A DNA stretch of 31,800 nucleotides, from the IMG/VR virus record IMGVR_UViG_3300025704_000078, positions 1 to 31,800 of that record, one strand, 5' to 3'. The notes below the pieces were generated by a model. That model did no database searches. It had not been told where the DNA came from and saw only the letters and a list, made by a program, of their open reading frames with translations. The DNA comes from a virus. The translations under genes and the position numbers were made by a program. Below are positions 560-31,800 of the stretch, piece by piece. The first letter of the stretch is position 1, and each line of letters starts with the position of its first letter.

Positions 560-1363
560 ATGTATTATATATACCACATACCTGGTAAAAAAATAGGAGT
601 TACACGTAATCTTAAAACAAGAGTTACCCTTGTACAAGGATATAAGGAGGGAGAGTATGAAGTTCTTGAACAGTCAACCGATATAGATTATATATCAGAC
701 CGTGAAAAAGAGCTTCAAAAATTTTATAAATATACCGTCGACTTTAACGACTTTAAAACATTAACTAATCAATTTAATCAAGGAAAAAAAATGGCAATAA
801 ACGTAACAGAACAAACAACAACATTCCCAGTAAGTAAGAAGGATCTAAAAGATTACTTAGCTAAAAATACAGGCTTTAAAATAGCAATCGGCAAAACTAA
901 TGTAGAGTTAAATGAAGGGGTACAAAAATGGATATTAAAAAATAGTAGGACATCTCATTTTAGACAAACTAGGAGTTATGTATACAACAAGTCTTTGTTA
1001 AACTTTCTAGAAGAAGAAGAAAAAGAGACTTTGTTCAGTAAAAAGGATAAGACAGCGCCACAGCCAGCACCTAATGTTTATGATTCAATTAGAGAATGGG
1101 CGTGTGCTAAAGGGATATATAAATCTGGAGACTGCAAAACTCAATATATAAAGCTAATGGAAGAGTCTGGCGAATTAGCCGATGCTCTATTAAAAAACAA
1201 CGATAGTGAAATTATCGATGCTATTGGCGATATGGTAGTTGTATTAACTAATTTAGCTGAGCTTAGAGGATATAGTATTGAAAGTTGTGTTTTATCAGCA
1301 TACAACACTATTAAAAGTAGAGAAGGTAAAATGGTTAACGGAACTTTTGTAAAAAACGCATAA
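560..1363 (+). CDS. GIY-YIG-like / MazG-type nucleotide pyrophosphohydrolase fusion
   Basis: A 267-residue protein with two recognisable parts. Residues 1-60 resemble a small, degenerate GIY-YIG nuclease: YYIYHI stands for the GIY strand, KIGVT for YIG, followed by Arg residues and a Glu in REKELQKF. Residues about 175-267 are MazG-like (all-alpha NTP pyrophosphatase): KLMEESGEL followed by EIIDAIGDM supplies the ExxE...ExxD metal-binding pattern. MazG and the related T4 dCTPase hydrolyse (d)NTPs to monophosphates, which fits its place after a thymidylate-synthase homologue. The middle (about 78-170) is unassigned. An ATG at 791 after GGAAAAAAA could be an internal start giving a free MazG form, but the frame is continuous and the fused form is the simplest reading. 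No substrate can be named from sequence. Confidence 0.8.
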   Translation: MYYIYHIPGKKIGVTRNLKTRVTLVQGYKEGEYEVLEQSTDIDYISDREKELQKFYKYTVDFNDFKTLTNQFNQGKKMAINVTEQTTTFPVSKKDLKDYLAKNTGFKIAIGKTNVELNEGVQKWILKNSRTSHFRQTRSYVYNKSLLNFLEEEEKETLFSKKDKTAPQPAPNVYDSIREWACAKGIYKSGDCKTQYIKLMEESGELADALLKNNDSEIIDAIGDMVVVLTNLAELRGYSIESCVLSAYNTIKSREGKMVNGTFVKNA

Positions 1364-2234: not shown

Positions 2235-2373
2235 AAAAGAAAGAGAGTGGTCACTCACACTAGGAATTTATCCCGGCATATTGCTAGGGTTTAGAAGTTA
2301 TCGAGAAGAAACGTATACAACACATGTGCTATACATGCCTTTTATAGATTTAGCTTTTGTAATTGATAACTAA
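2221..2373 (+). CDS. Small hypothetical protein (50 aa)
   Basis: ATG at 2221 begins a 50-codon frame whose TAA overlaps the ATG of the next gene (TAATG, 2371-2375), an arrangement typical of translational coupling in phage operons. The product begins MKQSRKEREWSL, then GIYPGILLGFRSY, and ends in a hydrophobic stretch (VLYMPFIDLAFVID). The composition looks like a small folded beta protein rather than a membrane helix. Short proteins with a similar YPG-GFRSY pattern occur in other marine phages, from memory and without a search. No function is known. Confidence 0.6.
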   Translation: MKQSRKEREWSLTLGIYPGILLGFRSYREETYTTHVLYMPFIDLAFVIDN

Positions 2374-3341
2374 TGGGATTATTCGATGAGCGCGTAGCGT
2401 ACAAACCGTTTGAATATCCTAAGTATTACACAGAAGGATGGTTAAAGCAAGCACAGGCTTTTTGGTTACATACTGAAATACCGATGCAAAGTGATATTAA
2501 AGATTGGAAAGAAAAATTAAATGAAAAAGAAAAAAACCTCGTCGGAAATATTTTACTTGGGTTCGCTCAAACAGAATGCGCAGTTTCCGATTATTGGACT
2601 CAAAACGTTGTTGGATGGTTTCCGAAACACGAAATCCAACAAATGGCCATGATGTTTGGCTCACAAGAAACAGTACACGCGGTAGCATATAGTTACTTAA
2701 ATGAAACATTAAAATTAGAAGATTATGAGGCGTTTTTACACGAACCTGCTACGGCTGCTCGTTTTGACAACCTTGTTGCTAGTGGGGATAATGGCCGAGT
2801 TGGCATTGCTAGATCACTTGCTATCTTTTCCGCCTTTGCTGAAGGTGTTAGTTTGTATTCCGCTTTTGCAGTTCTGTATTCTTTTCAGCTGCGTAATTTA
2901 CTTAAGGGCATTGGACAGCAAATGAAGTGGTCAGTAAGAGATGAATCATTGCACAGTAAAATGGGATGTATGTTATTCCGCGATATGTGTGACGAAGATG
3001 ATCAATTACTAAGCTTATGTCGAGAAGATGTAATAAAAGCTGCTGAATCGATGGTAAAACTGGAAGCTAACTATATAGACAAGATGTTTGAAATGGGTGA
3101 TATAGAAGGTATTTCAGCCAATGACTTAAAGCATTTTATTAAAAAGAGAACAAATGAGAAGTTAGTTGAATTAGGTTATGTTGACTTAGGTAATTACTTT
3201 GCGTATGATGAAAAAGCCTCAGCTAATTTAGATTGGTTTTATCATTTAACCGGAGGAGTGACTCACACTGATTTCTTTGCAATGAGATCAACTGACTATT
3301 CAAAACCAACAGAAGGCGAGGACTTCGAAGATATGTGGTAG
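2373..3341 (+). CDS. nrdB: Ribonucleoside-diphosphate reductase, class I small (beta) subunit
   Basis: A 322-residue protein carrying the full class I diiron set: Asp44 (IKDW), Glu99 and His102 (QETVHAVAY), Glu157 (FAEGVS), and Glu191 and His194 (RDESLH). Tyr106, seven residues after Glu99, matches the radical Tyr122 of E. coli NrdB, so the enzyme should form a tyrosyl radical. It transfers the radical to the alpha subunit encoded next, making deoxyribonucleotides for phage DNA synthesis. The length is somewhat below that of E. coli NrdB (376). The C-terminal end, GEDFEDMW, has the acidic and aromatic character of the peptide that docks onto NrdA. It starts inside the stop codon of the preceding small gene. 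Confidence 0.96.
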   Translation: MGLFDERVAYKPFEYPKYYTEGWLKQAQAFWLHTEIPMQSDIKDWKEKLNEKEKNLVGNILLGFAQTECAVSDYWTQNVVGWFPKHEIQQMAMMFGSQETVHAVAYSYLNETLKLEDYEAFLHEPATAARFDNLVASGDNGRVGIARSLAIFSAFAEGVSLYSAFAVLYSFQLRNLLKGIGQQMKWSVRDESLHSKMGCMLFRDMCDEDDQLLSLCREDVIKAAESMVKLEANYIDKMFEMGDIEGISANDLKHFIKKRTNEKLVELGYVDLGNYFAYDEKASANLDWFYHLTGGVTHTDFFAMRSTDYSKPTEGEDFEDMW

Positions 3342-3374
3342 TAATAAACAAGAAATAAATAAATTATAAATAAT

Positions 3375-5093
3375 ATGTGGAATGAAAATTGGAAAAAAGG
3401 TGTCGATTGGCCTGAATGGGGTGACAACGACGTATACAAGCAGACAATATCCGGGGGATATCTATTCGACGGAGAAACACCTAGAGAAGCATACCAAAGA
3501 GTCGCTAAAACTGTGGCTAGAAGACTTTACAAACCGGAAATGGCCGAAACGTTTTTTAATTATATTTGGAATGGCTGGTTGTGTCTTGCTTCTCCGGTAC
3601 TTAGTAATACCGGTACTGATCGTGGTTTACCTATTAGCTGCTTTGGTATTGATGTAGCTGATAGCGTCTGGGATATCGGTCAAAAGAATACAGAAATGAT
3701 GATGCTTGCTAAAAACGGCGGGGGAGTAGGCATCGGCATTAATCAAATAAGACCTGCTGGAGCTAAAATAACTGGTAATGGAACATCTGACGGAGTTGTG
3801 CCTTTTTGTAAAATATACGATTCAACTATACTTGCCACTAACCAAGGATCTGTGCGAAGAGGAGCTGCATCAATCAATATTAACATTGAACACGCTGATT
3901 TTGAGGAGTGGCTCGAAATACGAGAACCTAGCGGAGACGTTAATCGTCAATCGCTCAATGTCCACCAGTGTGCTGTGGTCGGCGATAAGTTTATGCGAAA
4001 GCTGGAAGCTGGAGATAAAGAAGCGAGGGGGAAATGGTCTAAACTGTTACAGAAACGTAAAGGAACTGGAGAGCCTTATATCCTTTTTAAAGGAAATACA
4101 AACAAAAATAACCCAGCAGCTTATAGAGCCAATGGATTAAAAGTGCACATGACTAATATATGTAGTGAAATAACGCTGCATACAGACGAAAGTCACAGCT
4201 TCGTGTGCTGTTTATCAAGTTTAAATTTAGCTAAATATGAAGAATGGAAAGACACGAATCTTATACATGACGCCACTTGGTTTCTTGATGGAGTTATGGA
4301 AGAATTTATTCAAAGAGCAAAGGGACTTAAAGGATTTGAAAATGCGATACGATCGGCTCAGAAAGGAAGGGCTTTGGGCTTGGGTGTTCTTGGATGGCAT
4401 ACATATCTCCAGGATAAAGGTATTCCTTTTGAAGGTTTGCTTGCTCAGTTTGAAACTAGGAAAATATTTTCGCAAATTAAAGTTGAAAGTGAAAGAGCCT
4501 CAAGATCTCTTGCTGAAGTTTACGGCGAGCCTTTGTGGTGCGCTGGTACTGGTTTGCGTAATACTCACTTGCGCGCTGTTGCTCCCACTGTTAGTAATTC
4601 GAAACTTAGTGGGAATGTTTCGCCAGGAATAGAGCCTTGGGCAGCAAATGTTTTTACAGAGCAAGGAGCAAACGGAACTTTCATTAGAAAGAATCCTACA
4701 TTAGTTAAAGTATTAGAAGAACATAATTTAAACACGAATGAGATTTGGAGGAAGATCCTGGATGATGACGGTAGTGTTCAGGGTATCGATGCTTTGGATA
4801 GTATTACTGTGGGTCATAACATACCAGTTAAGGAAGTTTTTAAAACTTTTAAAGAGATTAATCAATTGGAATTAGTTAATCAAGCTGGATTGCGTCAGGC
4901 TTACATAGATCAGTCCGTTAGCTTGAATCTAGCGTTTCCTAAAGAAGCAACGCCAAAGTGGCTTAATACAGTCCATTTCGATGCTTGGAAGAAAGGTGTT
5001 AAGACTTTGTACTATATGAGAACTGAAAGTGTATTGCGAGGAGATATTGCTCAGAATGCCATGAGTGCAGAATGCTTAGCTTGTGATGGCTAA
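3375..5093 (+). CDS. nrdA: Ribonucleoside-diphosphate reductase, class I large (alpha) subunit, short form
   Basis: A 572-residue catalytic subunit. Cys89 (GLPISCFGI) and Cys278 (SFVCCLSSLNL) are the redox pair. Asn261, Cys263 and Glu265 (NICSEI) correspond to E. coli N437, C439 and E441. Tyr546-Tyr547 (TLYYMRT) are the radical-transfer tyrosines, and PTVSNSKLSGNVSPGIEP matches the substrate-binding region. The C-terminal reducible pair is CLAC (Cys567, Cys570), spaced CxxC rather than the CxxxxC of E. coli. The protein is much shorter than E. coli NrdA (761) and starts near the catalytic core, so the N-terminal ATP cone that mediates dATP inhibition is absent; the phage enzyme probably escapes that feedback. 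It is the last gene of the plus-strand arm, 33 bases after nrdB and directly before a terminator. Confidence 0.96.
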   Translation: MWNENWKKGVDWPEWGDNDVYKQTISGGYLFDGETPREAYQRVAKTVARRLYKPEMAETFFNYIWNGWLCLASPVLSNTGTDRGLPISCFGIDVADSVWDIGQKNTEMMMLAKNGGGVGIGINQIRPAGAKITGNGTSDGVVPFCKIYDSTILATNQGSVRRGAASININIEHADFEEWLEIREPSGDVNRQSLNVHQCAVVGDKFMRKLEAGDKEARGKWSKLLQKRKGTGEPYILFKGNTNKNNPAAYRANGLKVHMTNICSEITLHTDESHSFVCCLSSLNLAKYEEWKDTNLIHDATWFLDGVMEEFIQRAKGLKGFENAIRSAQKGRALGLGVLGWHTYLQDKGIPFEGLLAQFETRKIFSQIKVESERASRSLAEVYGEPLWCAGTGLRNTHLRAVAPTVSNSKLSGNVSPGIEPWAANVFTEQGANGTFIRKNPTLVKVLEEHNLNTNEIWRKILDDDGSVQGIDALDSITVGHNIPVKEVFKTFKEINQLELVNQAGLRQAYIDQSVSLNLAFPKEATPKWLNTVHFDAWKKGVKTLYYMRTESVLRGDIAQNAMSAECLACDG

Positions 5094-6903: not shown

Positions 6904-9900
6904 TTATTTCTTTTTATTCCAGCTTCCACGTTCTGCATTATTCCAGCTACCACGTTTTACATTGTGCCAGCCTTTCTTTTTACTCTTACCGTTCTTTCCA
7001 CTTTCTATCAACCCTAAATCCCATTGGCTGTAACCTAACATAAGCGCAATAGACTGCCACATTTTAGTTTCGTTATCAAGAGCTACTCTTATATTATCCG
7101 CTTTCTTTATTACTCTATCTAAAGGTACGTTAAACGCAGCTGAAACAATTTGCCCACCAGCGTAAAAAGCAGGATTATCTAAGCCAAATCCTTTCATCTT
7201 CTCTCTAGTTGTTTTGTAACTAAAAGCTCTAGAAGCACTCATTATTTTTCTCATTTTAGAATCTATAGGTGGAGATATACTTAAAGCTCTTTGAGCAGCT
7301 ACGGTATAATCCGGTCTATTTTTATTACTTTGAGAGTAAACTTCCGCTCCTATGTTTTTCAGGGTAGAAGCTATAGCTCCATATACACCTAGCCCACGTA
7401 ATATTGAATCTAACATTGAGTTAGCAACTCTGATCTTTTTATTTTCCTCAGCATCTTCGTCCTCGTCAAAAGCTATAGCAAATAAAGCTGCTTGTAAACT
7501 AGAAAATATGATATTTTGTACAGCTGTGTAATATATGATCTTAGTTACATTCGTCTTAACGTCCCCACGCCCATTTTTAAGATCCAAGAAAGCCTTTTTA
7601 GATAATCTCATGTATTGCATAGGGGTGTTTGCAAAAGCTAATATAATACGGCCTAATGGACTCGCTTGTTGTTGCGAGATTCTATCAGGTCTAGAAGATT
7701 GCTGTGTCTCTTCAGCTATTTCTTGGAAATCTAAGAACGCTTTTTCTTTAGCATCCGCTTCCGTCATACCCTCGCTTATGTACCCGTTAATTCTATTTCT
7801 TATAAAAGAAGCACCACCCATTGCTATAGCGAAACTATCTGCTATTTGAGTAGGTAAGAATCCAGCCTTTAATAAACTAGCGAAAACCGCTTTTGTTTTA
7901 TTAGTAGCTGTTTCTGCTGCATTTGCAATGTCATCAGCGTTGACATCATTCTTTAAACCGGATCTTCTTTGTTTTAGAAAGTCGGAGTTAAATAGCATTG
8001 AGAAGTCTGACCAGAATTGTTTTTGATTAGCGAAAGCTTTAGCAGCCTGAATAGGGTTGTTGTCATGCCAATTTATAAAGTTGACAATTGACAATGTTTG
8101 TAGTAAAGCAGATCTTGTATTAAAGAACATTATAGTACCCACAGAGTCGTTAACCCAGTTCATGAATTTGTTAGTAAGCTTATTTGCACCTGAAGGCCTG
8201 TTACGTCCAGTCTTCATTCGGTAAAGCATATCCTGTAAGGCTTCAACATAATTATCTCCAAAAGATGCTCTTAATTTATTTATGTTTTCTTTTGAAAATA
8301 TAACATCAGCATTATCTTGCCACTCTTGTAAAAACTCTGCTCTTTTAGTAGTGTTAACCATATTAATAGCATCTGTTGTAATAGTACCAGCTAGCCAGTC
8401 ATTTTGCGGCTCTGGATATCCATTTAAAACAGTGTCCATTTGGTTTGCAAAATCTTTAAGCTTTGGATTATTTGCAATAATTTCTATTAACTCTTTCTGA
8501 TCAACCGCTGTTAAACCTGGTATTTCATATCCATTTTTAACCCATAAATAAACTCTTACTGCAACTTCATTAGTAAAGCCAGTGCTATTTACTTTGTTTA
8601 ATCCAGATGGTATTTTCTTTATACTCTTTTTTAACTGGTTTACAATAGCTGTGGCATTCTGCTTGTAGCTCTCAAATTCTCTAATACCTTTTGCAAATGG
8701 ATCGAATAAAGCTTCTTTAAACCAAGCTTGGTGCGCTTCTCCACGCTTTCCTTTACCAGTTAGATTATATAATAAACCAGCAAAATCATCCGCAGATGGT
8801 GGTATAAAGAATTTGAATCTGCCTTTCTTTTCACCAAGCACTTTACCTTTAGCATCTGAAACTATTCTTTTAGAATCAATACCAGTAGTATCTTCTATTA
8901 TATTGTTGAACTCTTTGTTTAAGCTTTTAGAAAATTGAACTTTTGCTTGATGAACTTTTGATTTTACATCTGATTGCTCAAGTACTTCTTGTACAGCTTT
9001 TACATTCTTATAAGCGTCGTCCGCAAAATAAAAGTCGTTATAACCCTCGGCTACCTTGCCTATAACCCATTTGGCTTTAGCTATAGCGGTTCCATCGCCT
9101 AAACCAAATATATTATCTAGTTCAATATCAAGGCCAATACCTTCAAGAAACTCATGTATAGCATACTTTGAATCAGCCGGTCTAGCAGTCAAAATATAAA
9201 CGTTTTCGTTACCAAATTTTTTATTACGAGCAACAGCCTTATCAAACATAGGTCCTTTAGCTCCATTCATAACCTTGCTAAATTCACTAAAGTCAAAAGT
9301 AGCTCCTTTCGCAGCTAATTCATCTGCTTTTAAAGCAAACTCTGTTGCATTAATTTTATTAAGCTCTGATACAGCTCCTTTATCAAATACCACAATGTTT
9401 TCAGTATATCTTCCTTGATTTATTCCAGAAGCTATATTAGTGTCCTCAAATCTAGCTGCTTGTATGCCTTTCTTTTTTAAAGCATCAGCTAATTTAACCA
9501 TGTCTTTTTTAGAAAACGCTTGTTCAAATCTATCGTCGATAAGCTCATATAAGCTAGACTCATCAGCTTTCCAATCAGTGTCCTTTGGCTGTATACCTAA
9601 TTCTTCTATAACTCTACGTACTTGATCTTCATTACCTATAGCTTGCTCTCGTATTGAAAAACTACGAGTTTCACCTTGGTTTTCTTCAGAGTACGCATCT
9701 GCTTGTATTTTTTCTTCTGAAAAATATGCGAAACCTTTTATGTCCTTAGGTGACTTAATATCACCTCCGTGAAAAACCTGAGTTTGCCCAGGTAGTGTGT
9801 ATAACACATTACTTTTCGTAGTAGCCAGAGTGTCGTCAAAATCCCAAATACTAATCCCTTTAACAGGAGCGTCTACTCTATTAGCCATAGCTTTGGCTTC

Positions 9901-12900
9901 ATTAATCGTTTTGCTAAACGACACGATAGAGGTATCAATAGGATCCGCTTTGCTATTCTTAGAAAATTGTATAATTTTTTTATTTTTCAAATAATCCTTA
10001 ACTCGCTGGTCAGTATATCTTTTTTTCCCTCTCTCTCCTCTTTCTTTTTGAACTTTTCTTAAAAGTGTATCCAATTCCCTAGACACTAAGTTTACCTTAG
10101 CTCCCTCTAAAAAATTAATTAATTGTGTTCTATCTAATTTTCCTTCTACAAAATCTTTCCATGCTTGGAATACCTCCACAGCTTCAGTTTCATGTTCAAG
10201 TATAGAATCCTTAACTGCTAAACCTTCCATTGCAAATCCTGCAGAGTTCATTTTTCTTATAACACCCCTTTGATCTGCGCTTATTAAAGAAAGAAAACCT
10301 ATAAAAGAATCTTTATTCTTACTGTGTATAGCTTTTATAGCTTCATTAAGCAACCAATTTCTAACCTCTATAGCTTCTTCATTTATAGTTTTAACATTAT
10401 TAATGAAATCTGCTTTTATATTAGTTACATCAGCCAGACCCTGTAGTCTTACTCCATCTCTAAGGATATAAGACCTGTTTTTTTCTCTATCTATTTTTTT
10501 AGAAAATCCATATTTTTTAGGGTCGCCTAATACTGGTTTTAGTATTTGATCGTATACTTGCTCATTTCTTGTTATGCCATCAAGCTTAAGTGTTCTTATA
10601 GACCTACTTATATACCTTAAGAAAAGTTCTGCAACATACGCTTTTGCTTCTATTCCATTTACATTATTAAGAGATGATTTAAAGTTTGCCAAAGAATAAT
10701 CAAATCCAATAACTTTTTGTTGATACTTATATACTGTTTGGTATTCGTTTATAGCGCTTATTAAGAATTTAACAGTATCCGTGTAATTCAGTTTGTTCGC
10801 TAATAGCTTTAATAATTCTGCTCTATATGTTCTAATACTGTTTTTATTTAAAGTATCATTACCAGCATTCCATACAAGCTTCGCTAGACCTTCGAAATCT
10901 TTTACCTTCTTAACCCCCTCTAGTATATCTTGAACTACGTAATACTTAAAATCAGTGTTAGATAATTTTTCAAGTAAAGGAGTTAAAGCGTTAGATATGT
11001 TTTGCTTTTCTTCAGTAGTAACAGTTTTGGAAAATTGTATAATATCAAAACCTGTTTTTTCACCTTTATATCTATCAAGTTGACTTTGAAGATCATTTAA
11101 TTGAGCTTCTATTATAATACCCGCCTGAACATCTAGAGAGGTATCAGGGGCAAGCTCTTGAATAGATTTTAATTGACCTAGGTTTTCAGGTGTCGCGTAG
11201 TCTGCAATGACCTGCTTAGCTACTGGTTCAAGAATTTCTCTAAATAATTGCTTTTGTCTTTCTAATATAGTTGATTTTTTACCTTTAACAAAGTAAGTTA
11301 AGAAAGTTTTCTTATCAATTGGTTTAATTCTAAAAACAGGGTTGCCTTCTGCTGTTAATTCTCTACCAACTTTTTCTGTAGGAAACAACTTACCATAGCT
11401 CTTTTTAATGCTTTTAATTGGTAAAGCTTTAGTTACTATGTCAAAAGTGTTTGGATCGTTTAGAAAGTCTATATATGGTCCAGGGATAACTGTTTCACCT
11501 TCTCTTTCGCCTATCGCTCCTAATTTTTTAGATAATTTCTTAAACAACTGTTTATTAACATAGTTTTCTAACCAGGAAACAATGTAAGTGTCTCTACCTT
11601 TTTTTATACTAACAGTTTCAGATAAAGTACCTTTTTGAGTTCTTACTCGTATTTCTTTTTCTAAGTCAGTAGTTATGGCTTCGGTTAGAGCATCGTCAAC
11701 AACGTCTAGTTCATCAAAAGTAGCTTGGCCTCTTTCAACCGCTCCACTTCTGTCAATGCTTTGTGTATCTTCTGTAGAAACAACTCCCTTAGCGTCATCT
11801 ATATCTGAAGAAAACTCTGTGTTAGCATCTTTAAACATTAAAGACTGTCTAGTCTGCACTATCTTTTTTACATAACCAGCTAAATCTTTATTTAATTTAG
11901 GATTATATGTACGTATTGCACTACTTACCTCAGCTCTTAATATAGATAAAGCATCTTGAAACTCTAAAGCTTCTGTTGCAAACTGCTTGAATTTTTGCTG
12001 AACAATAGTGTTTATGTAGCCTTCAAACATAGGCACGAGTTTTCTTTCCAAAGAAGCAGGTAAAGGTTTACTACCTTTGTACTCAGTTCTTTCGATTCCT
12101 TCCATACCTTCGTCATAAGCATCCATTATTTTTTTAGACAACGGATCTCTTGGGCCTAGGTCAGTAGTTCTTGTAGGTTTTTCAGGTCTTCTAATTTTTT
12201 CTTTAGGTTTAACCTCTTTTTTAAGCTCAGGTACAACTGTTGGCGGAGCTTTTGCTGCTGCTTCAGCTTCATCTAATTCCTTTTCAGCTTTCTCGATGTT
12301 ATCTAAATAGTTAGGGTCATTAGGATCCGCGTCCATAGCTTCATCTAAAGCCGCCTCTGCTTCAGTTATAGTTTTAGAGAACTGATCTTCATTACTTACC
12401 GCTTCTGCTTCGGAAACTTTTACCCCTGTTTCTTTTTCTCTTTTAGTTATAGCTCCTGTTGTTTTTTCAGAAAGCTTACCTGATTTTATACTTTCAGAAT
12501 AAGATTTCATAAAATTATAAACACCTCTTCCACTTACGAAATCTATATTGTCAAATCCTTTGTCAATAAATGTTTTGGTTACCCAATCTTTTATTTTACC
12601 AAAAACATTTCTTTCAAAATTTATACGATTTTTAACTAAACCTTCAGAGAAAACAGTAAGATACTCGTTATAATATTCCTGAGTACCTTCTACTTTACCT
12701 TGTTTTTTAAGCTCTTTCTTTACCCAAGTAGCTTGCTCATTACTTAGCGCTTTTTCGAAACTTTGCACTATGCTTTTTTGAGCTTTTGCGTCTCCTACTA
12801 AAGCACTTAATATAGGGTGAAGTACCTCGTGACTACCCACTCCTACAGCCCCCATTTTTTTTGATTGCTTAGAATTTATTAGTATACCTCCTTTACCTAC

Positions 12901-14856
12901 AAAAACCCCGTTGGATCCTTTAAGGCTTCTTTTTACATCACCCCTTGTTATGCCAGGTGTCTCTTTTACTCTTTTTTCATATACAGCGTCAATATACTCT
13001 TCAAAAGTTTTATAATTTTGACTATCGGCAATAGCTTGTTCATACGCTGAATCATTATTAAGTATCTGAAGGCCTTCGCTGATGTTTAATTGGGCAGCTG
13101 CGGCTTTAGTGAACGCCATATTTTCTCCAAAGTTTTCTTTTAAAACTCTATCAAAAATAGTTTGATTTTCACTTACTAAATTGTTTATATCGTTCTCTAC
13201 GTCTTGAGAATTCTTACCCTCATTTAAAATATTTATTTTGTCAACGTTTTTCGCATAATCCATTAAATCCTTACCCTGAAGATTATCTAAAACCATTTGG
13301 TTTTTAATAGAAATGGTTTGTAATTCTTTCTTTAAATCATTATTTAACCCTTGTAGAACGTCAGCTTTCTTTTGATTACCTTCTTCTTTAGCTAATTTTA
13401 TTTGATTATTTTTTTCTACAATTTTTTTAAACAATTCTTTTTGGGCTTCTCTTTCACTAGCAGGCATTAACAAAAACTCAGCTCTAGCTTTTAAAGTGGC
13501 GTTACCTCGGGTAGCTGAAACAATACCAGCAATTCCACCCCCAGAAAAACCACCTATTATACCTTCATCAATGATTTCAAAAGCATCTTCTATTATTTTG
13601 CTTTTTGAATTCTCATAAACTTCTGATATATTCTTAGAGTCACCTAACCAAAGTTCATCGTTTATTTTTGTAGCTATACTTTGCCCCATTTCAGTAAGGC
13701 TTTCTTTACCTCCAATGCCTATTACATCTAGTATTTTTCTACCAATGCCTTTGTTCATTTCGTCTAATGCTTTTTCCGCATTTCCTTTAAAGTTTTTACT
13801 GTTTAAAAGGCCTTTTGCTCTAAACATTCTTCGGCTAATAAGAGAATCTATCATTTCAATTCCTCCAGTAGTAGCAGCGTTACCTGCTACTTTCCATAAT
13901 TCTTTGTCTGGATTTTTTGAATATTCCTCTACAAACTTATCGTTTGATATAGATAAGCCTAAAGCGGCAGCTGTGTAAGGGTTTAAAGCAGCTAAAGTGT
14001 AAGGCGAGCTAGTTAAAGCTCCCGAAAATATTCTACCTCCAACTTCTCCCCAATCTGCTTTGCTCCCCTTTAATATTTCTTCTGAAATAGTATTATCATG
14101 AACGGTTATGTGCTCGTTTAGCTTTTCAGTAATCTTACTTACTCCTTTCCTTGTAAACTGAGGGGATGTAAGAGCGATTATGTTGTCTAAGTAGTCATTA
14201 GTAGCTTTAGCTGACCTCGCTATCATTTCTTTCTCTTCCTTAGTGGCTGATCTACCTTTATCTAAGTAGTTAGACGTCTCCATCAAAGTAGTAATTACTG
14301 CCTCTCTACCGTCAACAAGTAAATCGTCTACTACTATTTTTGCAACAGTATTAAGCGCTCCAGGTATACCTTCAAGTGCATTTGCAAAGAATCCTTTAGG
14401 GTTTTCTTTTAAACCTCTTGCTATAGAATACATTTTACTTGGATCGTCAGGCGCTGCTTCGTTGGAATATGAATCTTTTACAGCTTTTGACGAGTCTACA
14501 CCACCTTGAATTGCAACCTCTATCATTTCATAAATAGGCGATATTTTTTTAATTAAGCCGTAAGTTTTACTTAGAAAATCCGATGAACCATTTTCCGATG
14601 TTGAATCCATATCGCTTTGATTTGACTCCACAGCTGGATCCGCACTTGCAGAGTCGTTTGTCTTTACTGGTAAAACATTAGTTTGCCAGTCTACAAATTC
14701 ACTTTCAGTATATCCTTTATCTTTTAGATATCCATATACGTTTTTCTGTACGTCTTCACTTTCTGATACATTAGTTTTCCATGTATCGAACTCTGAATTA
14801 GTTTTACCTGTAGAAGATAACTCATTCCAAATATTTTTTAATATGTCGTCTGCCAT
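6904..14856 (-). CDS. Giant polyvalent internal virion protein: metallopeptidase, ADP-ribosyltransferase-like and HAD domains
   Basis: I choose ATG 14854-14856 (MADDILKNIW), 10 bases after the preceding stop; an ATG 96 bases further upstream lies inside the neighbour. The product has 2650 residues. Residues 1-60 form a short helical domain. About 430-450 is a Gly-rich hydrophobic patch. HEVLH at 676-680, with Glu731 or Glu738 downstream, marks a zincin-type metallopeptidase. DFDDT at 1672-1676, Thr1890 (ILTARP), Lys1927/1929 and Asp1946-Asp1947 (FADDAY) mark a HAD phosphatase. Residues about 1694-1832 (VFHGG, FAYFSEE, YTENIVVFD) look like an ADP-ribosyltransferase fold within it. The C-terminal third (about 1980-2620, with PLGRIILAFANTPMQY and hydrophobic helices) resembles ejection proteins of marine podoviruses. 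QFSK-like motifs lie at 825, 1274, 1630, 1646 and 1974. Probably packaged and injected. Confidence 0.85.
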   Translation of the reverse strand: MADDILKNIWNELSSTGKTNSEFDTWKTNVSESEDVQKNVYGYLKDKGYTESEFVDWQTNVLPVKTNDSASADPAVESNQSDMDSTSENGSSDFLSKTYGLIKKISPIYEMIEVAIQGGVDSSKAVKDSYSNEAAPDDPSKMYSIARGLKENPKGFFANALEGIPGALNTVAKIVVDDLLVDGREAVITTLMETSNYLDKGRSATKEEKEMIARSAKATNDYLDNIIALTSPQFTRKGVSKITEKLNEHITVHDNTISEEILKGSKADWGEVGGRIFSGALTSSPYTLAALNPYTAAALGLSISNDKFVEEYSKNPDKELWKVAGNAATTGGIEMIDSLISRRMFRAKGLLNSKNFKGNAEKALDEMNKGIGRKILDVIGIGGKESLTEMGQSIATKINDELWLGDSKNISEVYENSKSKIIEDAFEIIDEGIIGGFSGGGIAGIVSATRGNATLKARAEFLLMPASEREAQKELFKKIVEKNNQIKLAKEEGNQKKADVLQGLNNDLKKELQTISIKNQMVLDNLQGKDLMDYAKNVDKINILNEGKNSQDVENDINNLVSENQTIFDRVLKENFGENMAFTKAAAAQLNISEGLQILNNDSAYEQAIADSQNYKTFEEYIDAVYEKRVKETPGITRGDVKRSLKGSNGVFVGKGGILINSKQSKKMGAVGVGSHEVLHPILSALVGDAKAQKSIVQSFEKALSNEQATWVKKELKKQGKVEGTQEYYNEYLTVFSEGLVKNRINFERNVFGKIKDWVTKTFIDKGFDNIDFVSGRGVYNFMKSYSESIKSGKLSEKTTGAITKREKETGVKVSEAEAVSNEDQFSKTITEAEAALDEAMDADPNDPNYLDNIEKAEKELDEAEAAAKAPPTVVPELKKEVKPKEKIRRPEKPTRTTDLGPRDPLSKKIMDAYDEGMEGIERTEYKGSKPLPASLERKLVPMFEGYINTIVQQKFKQFATEALEFQDALSILRAEVSSAIRTYNPKLNKDLAGYVKKIVQTRQSLMFKDANTEFSSDIDDAKGVVSTEDTQSIDRSGAVERGQATFDELDVVDDALTEAITTDLEKEIRVRTQKGTLSETVSIKKGRDTYIVSWLENYVNKQLFKKLSKKLGAIGEREGETVIPGPYIDFLNDPNTFDIVTKALPIKSIKKSYGKLFPTEKVGRELTAEGNPVFRIKPIDKKTFLTYFVKGKKSTILERQKQLFREILEPVAKQVIADYATPENLGQLKSIQELAPDTSLDVQAGIIIEAQLNDLQSQLDRYKGEKTGFDIIQFSKTVTTEEKQNISNALTPLLEKLSNTDFKYYVVQDILEGVKKVKDFEGLAKLVWNAGNDTLNKNSIRTYRAELLKLLANKLNYTDTVKFLISAINEYQTVYKYQQKVIGFDYSLANFKSSLNNVNGIEAKAYVAELFLRYISRSIRTLKLDGITRNEQVYDQILKPVLGDPKKYGFSKKIDREKNRSYILRDGVRLQGLADVTNIKADFINNVKTINEEAIEVRNWLLNEAIKAIHSKNKDSFIGFLSLISADQRGVIRKMNSAGFAMEGLAVKDSILEHETEAVEVFQAWKDFVEGKLDRTQLINFLEGAKVNLVSRELDTLLRKVQKERGERGKKRYTDQRVKDYLKNKKIIQFSKNSKADPIDTSIVSFSKTINEAKAMANRVDAPVKGISIWDFDDTLATTKSNVLYTLPGQTQVFHGGDIKSPKDIKGFAYFSEEKIQADAYSEENQGETRSFSIREQAIGNEDQVRRVIEELGIQPKDTDWKADESSLYELIDDRFEQAFSKKDMVKLADALKKKGIQAARFEDTNIASGINQGRYTENIVVFDKGAVSELNKINATEFALKADELAAKGATFDFSEFSKVMNGAKGPMFDKAVARNKKFGNENVYILTARPADSKYAIHEFLEGIGLDIELDNIFGLGDGTAIAKAKWVIGKVAEGYNDFYFADDAYKNVKAVQEVLEQSDVKSKVHQAKVQFSKSLNKEFNNIIEDTTGIDSKRIVSDAKGKVLGEKKGRFKFFIPPSADDFAGLLYNLTGKGKRGEAHQAWFKEALFDPFAKGIREFESYKQNATAIVNQLKKSIKKIPSGLNKVNSTGFTNEVAVRVYLWVKNGYEIPGLTAVDQKELIEIIANNPKLKDFANQMDTVLNGYPEPQNDWLAGTITTDAINMVNTTKRAEFLQEWQDNADVIFSKENINKLRASFGDNYVEALQDMLYRMKTGRNRPSGANKLTNKFMNWVNDSVGTIMFFNTRSALLQTLSIVNFINWHDNNPIQAAKAFANQKQFWSDFSMLFNSDFLKQRRSGLKNDVNADDIANAAETATNKTKAVFASLLKAGFLPTQIADSFAIAMGGASFIRNRINGYISEGMTEADAKEKAFLDFQEIAEETQQSSRPDRISQQQASPLGRIILAFANTPMQYMRLSKKAFLDLKNGRGDVKTNVTKIIYYTAVQNIIFSSLQAALFAIAFDEDEDAEENKKIRVANSMLDSILRGLGVYGAIASTLKNIGAEVYSQSNKNRPDYTVAAQRALSISPPIDSKMRKIMSASRAFSYKTTREKMKGFGLDNPAFYAGGQIVSAAFNVPLDRVIKKADNIRVALDNETKMWQSIALMLGYSQWDLGLIESGKNGKSKKKGWHNVKRGSWNNAERGSWNKKK
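6915..6972 (-). repeat. 24-base tandem repeat at the 3' end of the giant gene
   Basis: Two near-identical 24-base units (6915-6938 and 6939-6962) plus the start of a third encode RGSWNNAE, RGSWNKKK and a diverged GWHNVK. They form the extreme C-terminus of the giant protein, a basic Trp/Asn tail. Confidence 0.75.
8941..9855 (-). other. HAD domain with inserted ADP-ribosyltransferase-like domain (within the giant protein)
   Basis: HAD motif I (WDFDDTL, residues 1671-1677) is split from motifs II to IV (residues 1890-1947) by a segment with ART-like features at about 9361-9777: His1696 in VFHGG, FAYFSEEKIQADAYS, and Glu1819 before IVVFD. The HAD core resumes with the INATEFALKADELAAKG helix. 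Confidence 0.65.
12637..12831 (-). other. Zincin-type metallopeptidase core (within the giant protein)
   Basis: VGSHEVLHPILSAL gives the HExxH zinc motif (His676, Glu677, His680). NEYLTVFSEGL about 50 residues on offers Glu731 or Glu738 as third ligand. The spacing and the surrounding helices resemble metallopeptidase segments of phage polyvalent proteins. No activity is proven. Confidence 0.7.
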
Positions 14857-14866
14857 AAAATTTAAT

Positions 14867-16285
14867 TTAACCGAAGTTATTAGAACTTGCTGTTGTATTT
14901 GTTTCTTTAGTTTTAGTATTTTTCCCGCTAGAATCTTTAGACTGATTTCCATAAGAACCTATGTAATAGTTTTTAGCTTTAGGAGATAAGTCTGAATTGT
15001 TTATATAGAATTCAAACATTGATTTAGGATCTTTAATATCCACAGATACCCCCATAGCGTCTTGTCCTGCACTTTTAGGGTTTGTTATGTACATATCGAA
15101 ATTTCCAAATTGATCAGTAAATGCTTTTCTAGAATCGTTACTGTCTTCTTTATCTGTTCCTGCAAGAAAGTTTTTATATAAATTACCTTTTGTTACATAT
15201 ATTTTTGTCGATGTAGGGTCAATTGAATTTATTACACTAGCCATTTGACTAGCTGTAGTACTCCCATTTGCTCCCACGGCGTTCTTAGACAATAAAGAAA
15301 ACTCTAAAGCCTTATCAGCAATAGGCCCCGATACATTTATCTCGTCTTTTAAAGATCCGCTAAAACCACCACTGCCGCCTCTACTAGACGGTCTTTTATC
15401 TCTAGCTCCTTGAGCAGCGGTATCTGTAAAAATATTCATATAGCTATCTAATACAGCTTGCTTTAAAGCCTCGTCATTACCCGGAGCGAATAACTCAGGA
15501 TCTGTTAAACCTAATCCACCTTGTATTACAAAATCGTCTTCAGCTAATGATAATAAGCTTTTTCTACCGCCTCTTGTCAGTATATTATTTAACTGCTGGC
15601 GTACCATGTTTTTTCTAGCCCCTGTAAGAGATGAGCCTGCATTATATATACTTTTATTAACTTCTAAAAGTTTATTTGCTGTAGCGAAATCCTTTAAGAA
15701 AGGCTTTGGTATTTTACTGTATGGGTCGTAAGTTTCTTTACCCTCGTTCCAAAAAACAAGGCTACCACCTGGCCCAACACCTAACGATGCTTGATCAGTA
15801 TAAAGATTAGAGGCTTCATTCAATGTGTTAATTTCGTTCCCGTCAGATATTAAGTTGTTGTCAAAATCTTTGAGATATCCAGCTTTATCTTCTTTATATG
15901 AGTTCATTTGATTAGCTAAATTTTTAAATGATTGAGATATACCATTTATTTTAGAGCTAAGCTCCATGTATTGCGGATTAGTGGGATCTTCAATTCTAGC
16001 TAGTTGACTTGCTGCATTCGCATACTCTGATCTTTGTTTTACTAAAAAGTTTGTAATTGATTGTTGCTGAGATGGGGTAAGTTCAGTTATATCCACATTA
16101 GTATCTAAAGCATCGATATAACTAGCTACTTTTGTGTTTATAGCGTTTTTCTTCGCTTTGGCTTGCTGCATTATAAGTTTGGTATTAGCAAAACCTTCTG
16201 CGAATCCCTCTTGTAGACTTTCATCCCAAGTTTTTGCAGGAGGAGCGCTAACCAATGCACTACCTTGTACTAATTGCTTATTCAT
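14867..16285 (-). CDS. Internal virion (ejection) protein candidate, 472 aa
   Basis: A 472-residue hydrophilic, mostly helical protein. It opens with an Ala-rich helical half (residues 20-140, EGFAEGFANTKLIMQQAKAK and similar), continues with a mixed domain, has a Gly/Ser linker (SSRGGSGGFSGS, near 300-312), and ends in a Ser/Thr/Asn/Lys-rich disordered tail. There is no signal peptide or enzyme motif. It lies between the small Gly/Gln-rich internal protein and the giant polyvalent protein, the slot taken by T7 gp15-type internal core proteins, so I infer a virion component ejected with the DNA. The stop is 10 bases before the giant gene's start. I do not recognise a named family. Confidence 0.75.
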   Translation of the reverse strand: MNKQLVQGSALVSAPPAKTWDESLQEGFAEGFANTKLIMQQAKAKKNAINTKVASYIDALDTNVDITELTPSQQQSITNFLVKQRSEYANAASQLARIEDPTNPQYMELSSKINGISQSFKNLANQMNSYKEDKAGYLKDFDNNLISDGNEINTLNEASNLYTDQASLGVGPGGSLVFWNEGKETYDPYSKIPKPFLKDFATANKLLEVNKSIYNAGSSLTGARKNMVRQQLNNILTRGGRKSLLSLAEDDFVIQGGLGLTDPELFAPGNDEALKQAVLDSYMNIFTDTAAQGARDKRPSSRGGSGGFSGSLKDEINVSGPIADKALEFSLLSKNAVGANGSTTASQMASVINSIDPTSTKIYVTKGNLYKNFLAGTDKEDSNDSRKAFTDQFGNFDMYITNPKSAGQDAMGVSVDIKDPKSMFEFYINNSDLSPKAKNYYIGSYGNQSKDSSGKNTKTKETNTTASSNNFG

Positions 16286-20025: not shown

Positions 20026-23000
20026 CTACGGTGGGCAAGTACCCCAAACAGGTTTAGAGGCGTTAGTTAAAGGTGCGTTTAAGCTAAACTCAAATGGTTC
20101 TGAACCAATATTTGTAACACACCAACTTGATATATTTTCATCAAAATTTAATGCGTTCCTAAACATCCTATCCATGTTAAGTACATTGGCAGTGTCCCAA
20201 GAGCCAATAGCCTGGTTGAAATCACTTGCCCCATTAAACATATAACGCATGTCAGTTACATTACTTGTGTTCCAATTACCTATATTTTGATCGAAATCAG
20301 CGGCTACATTGAACATAAATGCCATATCAGTAACATTACTTGTATCCCAATTGCTTAAAGTTTTATTGAAGTCATACGCTCCATCAAACATACCTCTCAT
20401 AGTGGTCACATTACTCACGTCCCAAGAATTTAAGTCTTTATCAAATCTATAAGCATAACTAAACATTTTACTCATATCTTCGACTTTACTAACATCCCAA
20501 GTGTTAACCGGTTGATTAAATACATCAGCATTATAAAACATGTTAGACATAGTTTCTACAGAACTAGTGTCCCAACCACTAAGATCTTGGTTAAAAGTGT
20601 TTGCCCCGCTAAACATAAAGTCCATACGCTCTACATTACTTACAGTCCAAAAGCTTATATCTTGATTGAAAAGTGTAGCGTCAGTAAACATCGAAGTCAT
20701 ATAAATAACCTCGGTTGTATCCCAATCTAAAGGTTGATTAAAAATATATGCTCTTTGAAACATACGAGACATGTCTACTACAGAACTAGGATCCCAATAA
20801 GTAATGTTGCCGTCGAATACATTCGCTTCTAAAAACATACTACTCATATCAGTCACATTACTCACGTCCCAAGCACTGATATCTCCATTGAAAGATTGAG
20901 CAAACTCAAACATTCTAGACATATCAATTGCTCCGCTAACATCCCATTCGCTAATATCACCATTGAATGTTGTTTTATCTTTAAAAGCACTTGAATAATT
21001 AGTCACTCTGCTAACATCCCAATCTGCCATCAGTCCAAATATAGGTACACTACCGCCGTTTACTGGATCTGCCAAAAGAGATAACTCCACAAGATCGTGA
21101 AAATTATCATCCGTAATAAATTGACATTCAGAGTCTGCACGCGCACTTACTTGTACATTAAACACTGAAGTTGCAGGGCCTGTTATACTGGTAGCTCTAC
21201 CGATTCCCTGTACGTTAAATTCTTTTGAGTCTACATTGTTATCACAATCATCTACAAAAAACGTAGGCAACCCTTTTATATAATTGTAGTACTTACCCTC
21301 TTTATTTATAAGTTCTTTAATTTCTCCCTCCTGTAGATCTGTTACTATAGAGTTAGCATACCAACCCTCAGTTGTCGAAACTTCTGTAGGCACTAATCGC
21401 TGAGCTTGTAATTGAGCTAAAGATAGTTGTTTATCACCGGTTGCTGTAGTTTTATATATGTATTTACGAGAATCCGTTCCGTTATAACTAATGGTTCTAA
21501 AATCCTTTACGGCTATAGAGCTTTCATTAAAAATATCAGTAAAAGAACTTTCATAGTAAGGCCCTAAGCTCACGTGTGATGGACCTATACCGTAGAAGTT
21601 ATTATACGATGTATTTGCATTCATTTCCCAGATCTTACCTGAGTTGAAAGTGTAGTACACGTTATTTAAACTAACACCGTCTTCGGGTATATATACTTTT
21701 CTAGAGGTCCAGCCGTTTACAGCATCTTTAAAAGATATTGTAGTCGAATATGTAGGGTACTCATTAATAAAAGCCCCGCATTCAGGGTCTTTATTAAGCC
21801 TGTCTGTTTTACCAGCCCCTAATGTTTGTTGCCAATAAGGAGTAAGAGTATTTAGAGTTACATTGTAATTACTTTTATCAGCATCCCAAGATCCGATTAT
21901 TCTATTGTTAACAGGTAAGTTGTCTTGAAAAAAGCCACTCATGCCATATTCTGAAACAGGTGTTATTCCGTCGTTAGATAATCTTATAACAGCTCCTCTA
22001 TTTGAATCTACAAAATACATTCTAAATCCGAATTCAGCAAATGATTCTGGATTTGTACCAATACCATATTCTCCTTGGTATGTTATTGTTTGGCCAAGAA
22101 CAGCTCTGTTGGATGTTACATTCGCGCTGCCATCGGCATTAAATAAAGCATCCTTATTAGCTAGAATCTTCATTGACTTGTTTTCGCACAATGTAACCAA
22201 ATCAGTGTCTCTAGCGTACAGTTTTTGAATTGAACCATATTCTGGGTTCACATCTTTTGTTATACTTTCCGCTTGAATAAATTGATTTAAACCATTAATA
22301 CCTGATGTTGAATTAAATATTTGTGAAAATATTAAACCATTAGATCTTGTTTCTTGCTCATAAGGTTCATCTAAAGTAGCAGAAGCCTTAACGCCATTAG
22401 ACATAGTAGGAGCGTTGTAATCATCTCTAATTCTGTCAGACTCCACTCCGTTACCAAATGAATAACAATTAAACCAATCTAATTCATGGGGGTCTCCGTG
22501 CTCATCTATAGGATAATTCCCTGATACTTCGTAATATATATCAAGCTCAGTAGCTTCTTTTGGCTCTGTTTCAAAAACAGCGGGGTTGGAACTTGTAAAT
22601 GATTTATCATTGTCATCTAAACCTAAAAACTCCATTCCTATAAAATTGTCTCCCTGAGCACTTGTTTGATAAGTCCATTCAGCAATACCACTACCGTCTG
22701 TTTGCTTTGTTGGATCCCATTGTAAACCAAACAAATCACCCTGCACGGGCTCTATATCTAATATCCACCAAGTTGTTTGATTCGTGGTATTAACAAAAGC
22801 GCCTCCTCGTTTACAATCGTAGTTTGTTAGCTTCTGTTCAACTGTTTTGGTTATTCTGTAAACAGTGTTGTTTGGATCAGCTTTACCGTTACCCGCATCA
22901 ACAAATCTAAACAGTGCTCCAGCTGTATTTAACTGAGTTAGTAATGCTGGATTGGATAACCTTAAGCCTTCGCTTCTACCGCTTCCATATCCTCCAGACC

Positions 23001-30960: not shown

Positions 30961-30978
30961 TTATTATTATTATTATTA
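30961..30978 (-). repeat. (TAA)6 tandem stop-codon run at the end of the portal gene
   Basis: Six in-frame TAA triplets follow the last portal codon (FDPK), in minus-strand sense. The run is also a trinucleotide microsatellite inside the 32-base gap before the scaffold gene. Confidence 0.85.
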
Positions 30979-31800
30979 CTTAGGGTCAAAGGAACCTAAG
31001 TCAAAATCTCCGCTAAGTATATCGTTTCCACTGGATTCAAAGTTTTTAGGCGGTAAATCATTACTTCTTTGGTTTATTAATTCACTCTGTTGTGACGCTT
31101 GTAATTTTGTACGCTCGTCTTTTCTATCTTCCTTTTCTGCTAATTCAGACTTTCTACCCTGAACCTCAATGCCTTTAAGCTGCATGTTCATTGAAAATTC
31201 TAATTGCATTAACTCTTTTTTCAAAGCAGCTTCTTGCATTAGCTTCTGAGCGTCAATTTGCGCTTTAGCTTGTTCAAAAGAAACTTTCTGTTGGGTCAAA
31301 GCTTGTTGTTTTTGAACTTCTGCCATCGCTGCAGCTTCAGCGGCTTGTGCATTAGCTTGAGCTTGTGCCTGCATATCTTGCTGCTTCATTTGCTGATCTA
31401 ACATTTGCTTTTCTTTCTTTCTTACTTTTAGCAACTGATTAGCTAGTTTTACACTTTTAATATCCCTCAAATCTATTGCATCGGATAAATCTATCATACC
31501 TGCACCAACGGCTGCTTGTATATTATTTTCTAAAACAGCTTTTTCCTCATCATCAGGAGCTAACTCTATAAATATACCAAAATCGTATAAATATAAATCT
31601 GCCATTTCAGATAGTACAGCTACATTTTGATTACCTATTTTATGTATGAAAGCATCTCTGGTTGGCGAGTACTCTAATATATCTGATATTCTTAATGATA
31701 AATTATCACATAAATCAGAAGTTAAAAACAAACTACCGTTTAATATATGTCTAGTAGCTGTATTTGAATTTGCTGCCGCTAATTTTTGAACACCTACTAA
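30976..31800 (-). CDS. Portal protein, C-terminal part (runs off the right edge)
   Basis: The frame is open to the last base of the window, so only the 3' part (about 274 codons) is present; a TTG at 31731 is not the real start. The visible part begins with helices (LVGVQKLAAANSNTATRHIL), followed by LYLYDFGIFIELAPDDEEKA and GMIDLSDAIDLRDIKSVKLA, then a Gln/Ala/Met-rich helix of about 90 residues with strong coiled-coil character, and ends in an acidic tail (SGDFDLGSFDPK). A long C-terminal helical barrel of this type, with the DAI-LR-LK-A pattern, occurs in portals of crAss-like and related podoviruses (recalled). Its place upstream of scaffold and capsid genes supports the call. Confidence 0.7.
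   Translation of the reverse strand, partial: LVGVQKLAAANSNTATRHILNGSLFLTSDLCDNLSLRISDILEYSPTRDAFIHKIGNQNVAVLSEMADLYLYDFGIFIELAPDDEEKAVLENNIQAAVGAGMIDLSDAIDLRDIKSVKLANQLLKVRKKEKQMLDQQMKQQDMQAQAQANAQAAEAAAMAEVQKQQALTQQKVSFEQAKAQIDAQKLMQEAALKKELMQLEFSMNMQLKGIEVQGRKSELAEKEDRKDERTKLQASQQSELINQRSNDLPPKNFESSGNDILSGDFDLGSFDPK

Follow-up and report, generated by a model that had tools for sequence, protein, structure and literature searches.

A giant gene that closes a structural module

The window (the whole 31.8-kb stretch that we analyzed, from the record of a marine bacterial virus) contains a minus-strand ORF for a giant protein of the polyvalent or ejection type (Table 1). This is the last gene of a minus-strand structural module with genes for a portal and other virion structural proteins, which are transcribed in the same direction; three small minus-strand ORFs come after it. 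A structural protein from the window is 43-51% identical to its counterparts from Flavobacterium phages elemo, Maribacter phage Panino, and podovirus MW202828. In Panino and MW202828, a giant gene also ends the same structural module. We describe the phage of the window as flavobacterial-podovirus-like. (The giant genes at this place, PANI_CDS0069 of Panino and UOF82488.1 of MW202828.1, are annotated as a tRNA methyltransferase and a reticulocyte binding/rhoptry protein; these names are probably misleading.)

Searches of the whole giant protein against Pfam and PHROGs gave nothing useful. Using tblastn against named phage genomes, we found no match for the HAD+ART region, for the HAD alone, for the ADP-ribosyltransferase (ART) alone, or for the C-terminal region. 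Also, neither Panino nor MW202828, which are related phages, gave a match to our ART, HAD, or kinase profiles.

Elsewhere in the window, a structural protein of 1,881 amino acids (20026-25671, minus strand) contains five DUF285 stretches and has a weak match to the crAss muzzle C-terminal domain; it is possibly a tail or receptor-binding protein. The small and large subunits of a phage ribonucleotide reductase and a MazG-like pyrophosphohydrolase are encoded on the strand opposite to the giant gene (2373-5093 and 560-1363, plus strand).

Table 1. Features of the window, with residue numbers counted from the start of the ORF.
Feature	Coordinates	Strand	Remarks
Giant polyvalent/ejection-type protein	6904..14952	-	2,682 residues; likely start Met33, codon 14854-14856
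HAD part 1 (residues 1698-1720)	9793..9861	-	Strand 1, motif I D1704-x-D1706-x-T1708, squiggle, first flap strand NVLYTL
HAD part 2	8938..9354	-	Second flap strand INATEF to motif II T1922, motif III K1959, motif IV D1978-D1979
Flap turn P1721...K1866	9355..9792	-	Grown from 7 to 146 residues; socket plus ART cargo
Predicted ART-fold domain (residues 1724-1863)	9364..9783	-	Modelled alone, pLDDT 92
His1728, first ART triad position	9769..9771	-	H in window subgroup and about half of family; N, A, or T in the rest
Tyr1743, second ART triad position	9724..9726	-	Mostly Y or F; some members differ
Tyr1754	9691..9693	-	Invariant in 27/27 ART relatives
Glu1851, third ART triad position	9400..9402	-	E in window subgroup; D, T, K, S, N, or Q in many relatives
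HEVLH, zincin-like metallopeptidase motif (residues 708-712)	12817..12831	-	Motif only; no Pfam match
FSK linker upstream of HAD+ART module	9958..9966; second copy 9910-9918	-	
FSK linker directly downstream of HAD+ART module	8926..8934	-	
Portal protein (C-terminal part)	30976..31731	-	Marks structural module; phrog_6547, 4.5e-31

An ART-type insert in the flap of the HAD domain

The HAD domain of the giant protein is encoded in two parts, and all of HAD motifs I-IV (DxDxT, T/S, K, and DD) are present (D1704, D1706, T1708, T1922, K1959, D1978, and D1979) and conserved across relatives. A first-pass annotation of this DNA had remarked on the long gap between motifs I and II and had proposed that an entire ART-type effector domain was inserted into a loop of the HAD. 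(That annotation counted residues from Met33, so 32 must be added to its numbers to obtain those of the ORF.) The motifs that it named are all found in the ORF: DFDDT is at residues 1704-1708 (9829-9843), VFHGG contains His1728, FAYFSEE is at 1741-1747, DAYS is at 1752-1755, Glu1851 (its Glu1819) precedes IVVFD, and the threonine of motif II is Thr1922 (in TARP). The gap is unusually long, as it had said: motif I and motif II are 217 residues apart, versus 78 in 97 of the 161 HAD copies in our first survey. This is because about 140 residues sit in the flap hairpin of the HAD.

In a predicted structure of the nested region (pLDDT 78, pTM 0.60), the two HAD parts build one Rossmannoid HAD fold. 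The best structural match of this fold was the LNS2 domain of Nir2 (Z = 10.3), and there were matches to many HAD phosphatases. The insert is flanked by strands E22-26 and E172-175, so that the flap strands hold an ART core between them, and the HAD core closes around it. The secondary structure elements of the ART modelled by itself recur between the flap strands. When the whole nested model was compared using Foldseek, PARP2 came first, as a weak match. With a pTM of 0.60, the predicted orientation of the ART over the HAD active site is not firm.

We also modelled the insert alone, with 27 relatives (mean pLDDT of 91.9). Its structural matches were almost exclusively to ART-fold proteins, with Z from 7.5 to 4.4 across 65-118 residues, although 7.5 (the best VIA value for the ART) is middling by the tool's own note, and the E values from Foldseek against PDB were weak. 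The top match (Z = 7.5) was the pre-ejectosome of cyanophage A4 (9k3a); further matches included diphtheria toxin, NatT, ParT and other RES toxins, KptA, tankyrase, and PARPs. Against viral models, Foldseek found polyvalent and ART-PolyVal proteins. In Pfam, ART-PolyVal (PF18760) matches 23 of the 27 relatives of the insert (best E = 4.2e-6), and the insert from the window itself scores below the cut-off (E = 0.095; 13.9 bits versus a gathering score of 31.2). A profile search against the sequences in PDB gave only unrelated chance matches. Judging from the models, the insert very probably has an ART fold.

As in the ART-PolyVal (PF18760) / Tox-ART-HYD2 clade, there is a His in strand 1 and a Tyr in strand 2. 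At the third position, the window copy has Glu, whereas Asp is described for the clade. It also differs from the clade in falling under the Pfam cut-off and in being nested in a HAD.

In HAD enzymes, a cap is defined as C1 by its insertion in the flap (PMC7822558, PMC3946280). This makes the insert a C1 cap by position and an ART by fold. The first-pass annotation had treated an ordinary HAD cap as the opposite of an ART, yet both descriptions apply. The giant protein resembles HAD phosphatases with C1 caps in the site of the insert and in the four conserved HAD motifs. In contrast to those enzymes, most of its relatives are capless (see below), and the site holds enzyme-type domains from other superfamilies, which alternate between close relatives.

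The ART core had been described as complete. This is correct for the window subgroup, and not for the family, in which neither the proposed catalytic Glu nor the His is conserved. His1728, Tyr1743, and Glu1851 (the H-Y-E set) are all present in the window and in the relatives that we label L020, L084, and L085. Other nested members have Asn in place of the His (L060, L190, L193, L195, and L196) or Asp, Thr, Lys, or Gln in place of the Glu. Among the free-standing ART relatives, these two positions are also occupied by Ala, Thr, Ser, or Asn. What is invariant in the family is Gly1740, Tyr1754, Glu1775, a Y-E-x-I-D-x-R-F block (1802-1809), and Asp1837. Because the triad is incomplete in many of the nested relatives, ART activity is doubtful for those and likely for the window subgroup only. 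For the window, the residues at these positions lead us to favor, by a little, a catalytic ART.

Within the inserts, dN/dS is 0.04-0.19 wherever dS is unsaturated (0.04-0.13 for the ART-A inserts), so they are maintained protein domains. Such low ratios in the ART-A inserts, and the retention of H, Y, and E in the window copy, argue against the idea that the nested domain is a catalytically dead ART scaffold, which would do no more than bind NAD, ADP-ribose, or the end of a nucleic acid and position a substrate for the HAD. That idea would explain why the H or E has been lost from many relatives, whereas none has changed Y1754, E1775, the YE-ID-RF block, or D1837. We view it as doubtful, with some weight in its favor.

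Empty and filled flap turns

We scanned viral contigs with only the HAD part that follows the insert. We found at least 593 relatives and kept the best 80. Most of these 80 have only 78-79 residues from motif I to motif II, and where the insert would be, VLYTM and INATEF are joined by a turn of 7 residues (P-DGTKG-K). Across all of our scans, which were biased towards inserts, there were 149 distinct viral HAD copies, with 89 empty turns and 60 filled ones. In an insert-blind sample, which was selected by a DNA pattern in motif IV, 66 of 73 HADs had the short spacing and 7 were filled. The site is fixed: the Pro at the start of the turn is kept in 59 of the 60 filled HADs.

These insert-less relatives, the predicted structure, and the ART relatives outside of HADs (described below) bear out the proposal that a whole ART-type domain lies within a loop of an otherwise intact HAD. 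The nesting is real, and it is a well-supported form of the modularity of polyvalent proteins. We rejected a chance motif match or an assembly artefact because similar inserts are found at the same turn in contigs from many independent metagenomes. An assembly chimera was rejected because the nesting is repeated in independent contigs.

The ART is not the only domain that is found at this turn. The window's type of ART fills it in 14 distinct copies. In 29 copies, the occupant is a P-loop kinase with matches to AAA_33 and Zeta_toxin in Pfam (up to 3.6e-16). A second ART-like type, with a YYHGT motif, is found in 3 copies; a putatively helical insert of about 46 residues, so described from its sequence, is found in 13; and a 22-residue piece is found in one. 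The second type (ART-B) had no significant match to the window ART when we compared them with hhalign, so we call it ART-like by motif only. Thus, the picture of a single insertion of an effector domain does not hold: the loop has served repeatedly as a socket, for at least four occupants besides this ART.

The kinase inserts (L088-L123; about 206-209 amino acids) are the commonest occupant that we found. Their Walker A motifs and the HAD motifs around them look intact, so these would be nested kinase-phosphatases. One 50-kb contig (IMGVR_UViG_3300025131_000066) encodes two separate kinase-filled HAD copies, L111 and L148, in opposite orientations.

A scan of genome contigs gave 8 contigs, which came from metagenome-assembled bins belonging to dissimilar taxa (Aliivibrio, Woesearchaeota, Bacteroidetes, and others). 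We took these for stray viral contigs and rejected them as evidence about hosts.

The same ART is also found outside of any HAD, in the same type of protein (L086, L087, L177-L182, L187-L189, L191, L192, and L197). In L177, L178, and L181, the HAD-free ART lies directly ahead of the FSK linker and the downstream domain that, in the window, come after the HAD. Similarly, in L116 and L117 (3001-3624), a Zeta/AAA_33-type kinase without a HAD occupies the slot of the HAD module and is followed by the same downstream domain.

Occupants have been exchanged repeatedly. When we made a tree from the HAD part that follows the insert, we counted at least 23 changes of occupant, where 5 would be the minimum. 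This tree was built from 135 columns and many of its forks are poorly resolved, and the well-supported branches alone force at least 6 changes of the ART. Individual pairs show the same discordance. For instance, the ARTs of L084 and L085 are 94% identical and their HADs are 57% identical, and the inserts of L021 and L167 are 92% identical and their HADs are 60% identical. Conversely, the HAD of L084 is 94% identical to that of L023, which is empty (as far as the Pro codon, their DNA is 97% identical), and the HAD of the window is 91% identical to that of L004, which is also empty. Synonymous divergence is lower in the insert than in the HAD for L021/L167 (0.23 versus 0.79), for L084/L085 (0.48 versus 0.73), and for L060/L196 (0.35 versus 0.61). 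Within the inserts of these three pairs, dN/dS is 0.04-0.14. In steps of 20 codons, identity shifts at the borders of the insert; in L084/L085, identity is already raised over the 20 residues that precede the insert.

Because the occupant changes, unrelated HADs share near-identical inserts, and synonymous divergence falls at the insert borders, we conclude that the flap is a socket whose occupant is exchanged. We are highly confident of the nesting and of this behavior of the flap. The pattern of identity and divergence is what recombination in the conserved flap strands would leave, and we infer that recombination was the mechanism.

Swapping either partner would yield the same discordance, so the ART could also have stayed in place while the HAD halves around it were replaced, instead of moving into HADs itself. 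The high divergence of much of the protein outside of the insert would suit this. However, the close empty relatives (94% for L084/L023 and 91% for the window and L004) show that the insert was gained or lost inside a single HAD lineage, which makes the exchange of HAD halves unlikely.

If the insert were instead an ordinary C1 cap that evolved in place, then it would merely resemble an ART and would serve the substrate specificity of the HAD, with no history or activity of its own. Its location at the classical C1 position, and the broken triad in many members, are as this would predict. But the same domain occurs outside of HADs in the same type of protein, which already weakens the argument; the ART moves between unrelated HADs; other folds alternate at the same site; and the model of the insert matches ART-fold proteins over 65-118 residues. 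We consider an ordinary cap to be quite unlikely.

Could the insert be a selfish or intein-like element, with the HAD as a neutral insertion site? By inspection of the inserts, we saw no splicing, homing nuclease, or recombinase sequences, and we rejected an intein or mobile element on those grounds. Also, unrelated types of cargo share the site, and they are the kinds of effectors that are known from polyvalent proteins (PMC5512222). Even with a fixed insertion point and mobility on its side, a selfish element is very improbable.

A proposed swappable roof for a phosphatase

Our preferred explanation, with a probability of roughly 0.7, is that the HAD flap acts as a socket for occupants within a polyvalent protein that is probably ejected, and that the occupant here is an ART. 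The giant protein, at the end of a podovirus-like module, carries a four-motif HAD whose flap beta-hairpin serves as the socket, holding an ART-fold domain with an intact H-Y-E set. The tip of the hairpin tolerates whole domains whose ends are adjacent, and the conserved flanks (VLYTMP and K-INATEF) can be arms for homologous recombination. In this way, phages exchange, gain, or lose the occupant, be it the ART, the ART-like type, the zeta-type kinase, the small putatively helical insert, or none. The giant protein would enter the host together with the DNA, and early in infection the nested ART might transfer ADP-ribose from NAD to a host molecule. An empty HAD would be a capless (C0-type) phosphatase for a large substrate or a substrate from the host. 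An occupant would roof the active site of the HAD and may alter its access or specificity.

Ejection with the DNA is plausible because the gene ends a podovirus-like structural module and because the best match of the ART is a pre-ejectosome protein from a cyanophage. By analogy to such systems, we think that ejection of the giant protein into the host is fairly likely. That the ART and the HAD are functionally coupled and act in sequence on host molecules is speculative. Similarly tentative is the proposal that the flap is a dedicated recombination socket, with which phages make two-enzyme machines by nesting: the product of the occupant (an ART or a kinase) would be processed or gated by the HAD, and swapping the occupant alone would switch the chemistry.

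Polyvalent proteins (Iyer et al. 2017, PMC5512222) are also giant multidomain proteins that are encoded near virion genes, have ART and zeta-type kinase cargo, and contain a HEXXH metallopeptidase motif. They are predicted to enter the host with the DNA (PMC5512222). Their domains are described as being in linear order, whereas here they are exchanged inside the loop of another enzyme. We saw no HAD domain in PMC5512222, and its text contains neither "phosphatase" nor "haloacid". The kinase-filled relatives resemble the kinase-phosphatase fusions of phages (PNK-HAD; PMC7824862) in having a P-loop kinase and a HAD in one polypeptide. In the PNK-HAD of jumbo phages, the kinase is fused ahead of the HAD, while here a zeta/AAA_33 kinase lies inside the HAD flap. 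The ejection proteins of podoviruses (PMC8954989), as well as the cyanophage A4 pre-ejectosome (9k3a), are large virion-encoded proteins with swappable enzymatic domains. In podovirus ejection proteins, whole segments or proteins are swapped (PMC8954989), in contrast to a socket inside a folded domain. In a limited search of the literature, we found no earlier report of an ART or kinase domain inside a HAD flap.

Polyvalent and ejection proteins are known to shuffle their domains end to end. Here, unrelated folds are exchanged at one hairpin turn within a folded catalytic domain. This shows a route by which a capless HAD can gain a foreign enzyme-type domain as a cap. It is also a natural case of a loop that accepts whole domains while the conserved motifs of the host fold are kept. 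The matched pairs of empty and filled HADs (94% and 91% identical) allow direct tests of the coupling of nested enzymes.

The giant protein contains nine FSK tripeptides, versus 0.9 expected from shuffles, and five of them are in linker-like places. FS[KR] is about three-fold enriched in relatives, partly by homology. Iyer et al. proposed that metallopeptidases process polyvalent proteins (PMC5512222). The HEVLH motif and the FSK linkers, as short motifs, fit this proposal, and the linkers are possible points of processing or recombination. (I/V)QFSK-like linkers lie at apparent domain borders, at 12373-12381, at 11026-11034, and at the three linker positions in Table 1.
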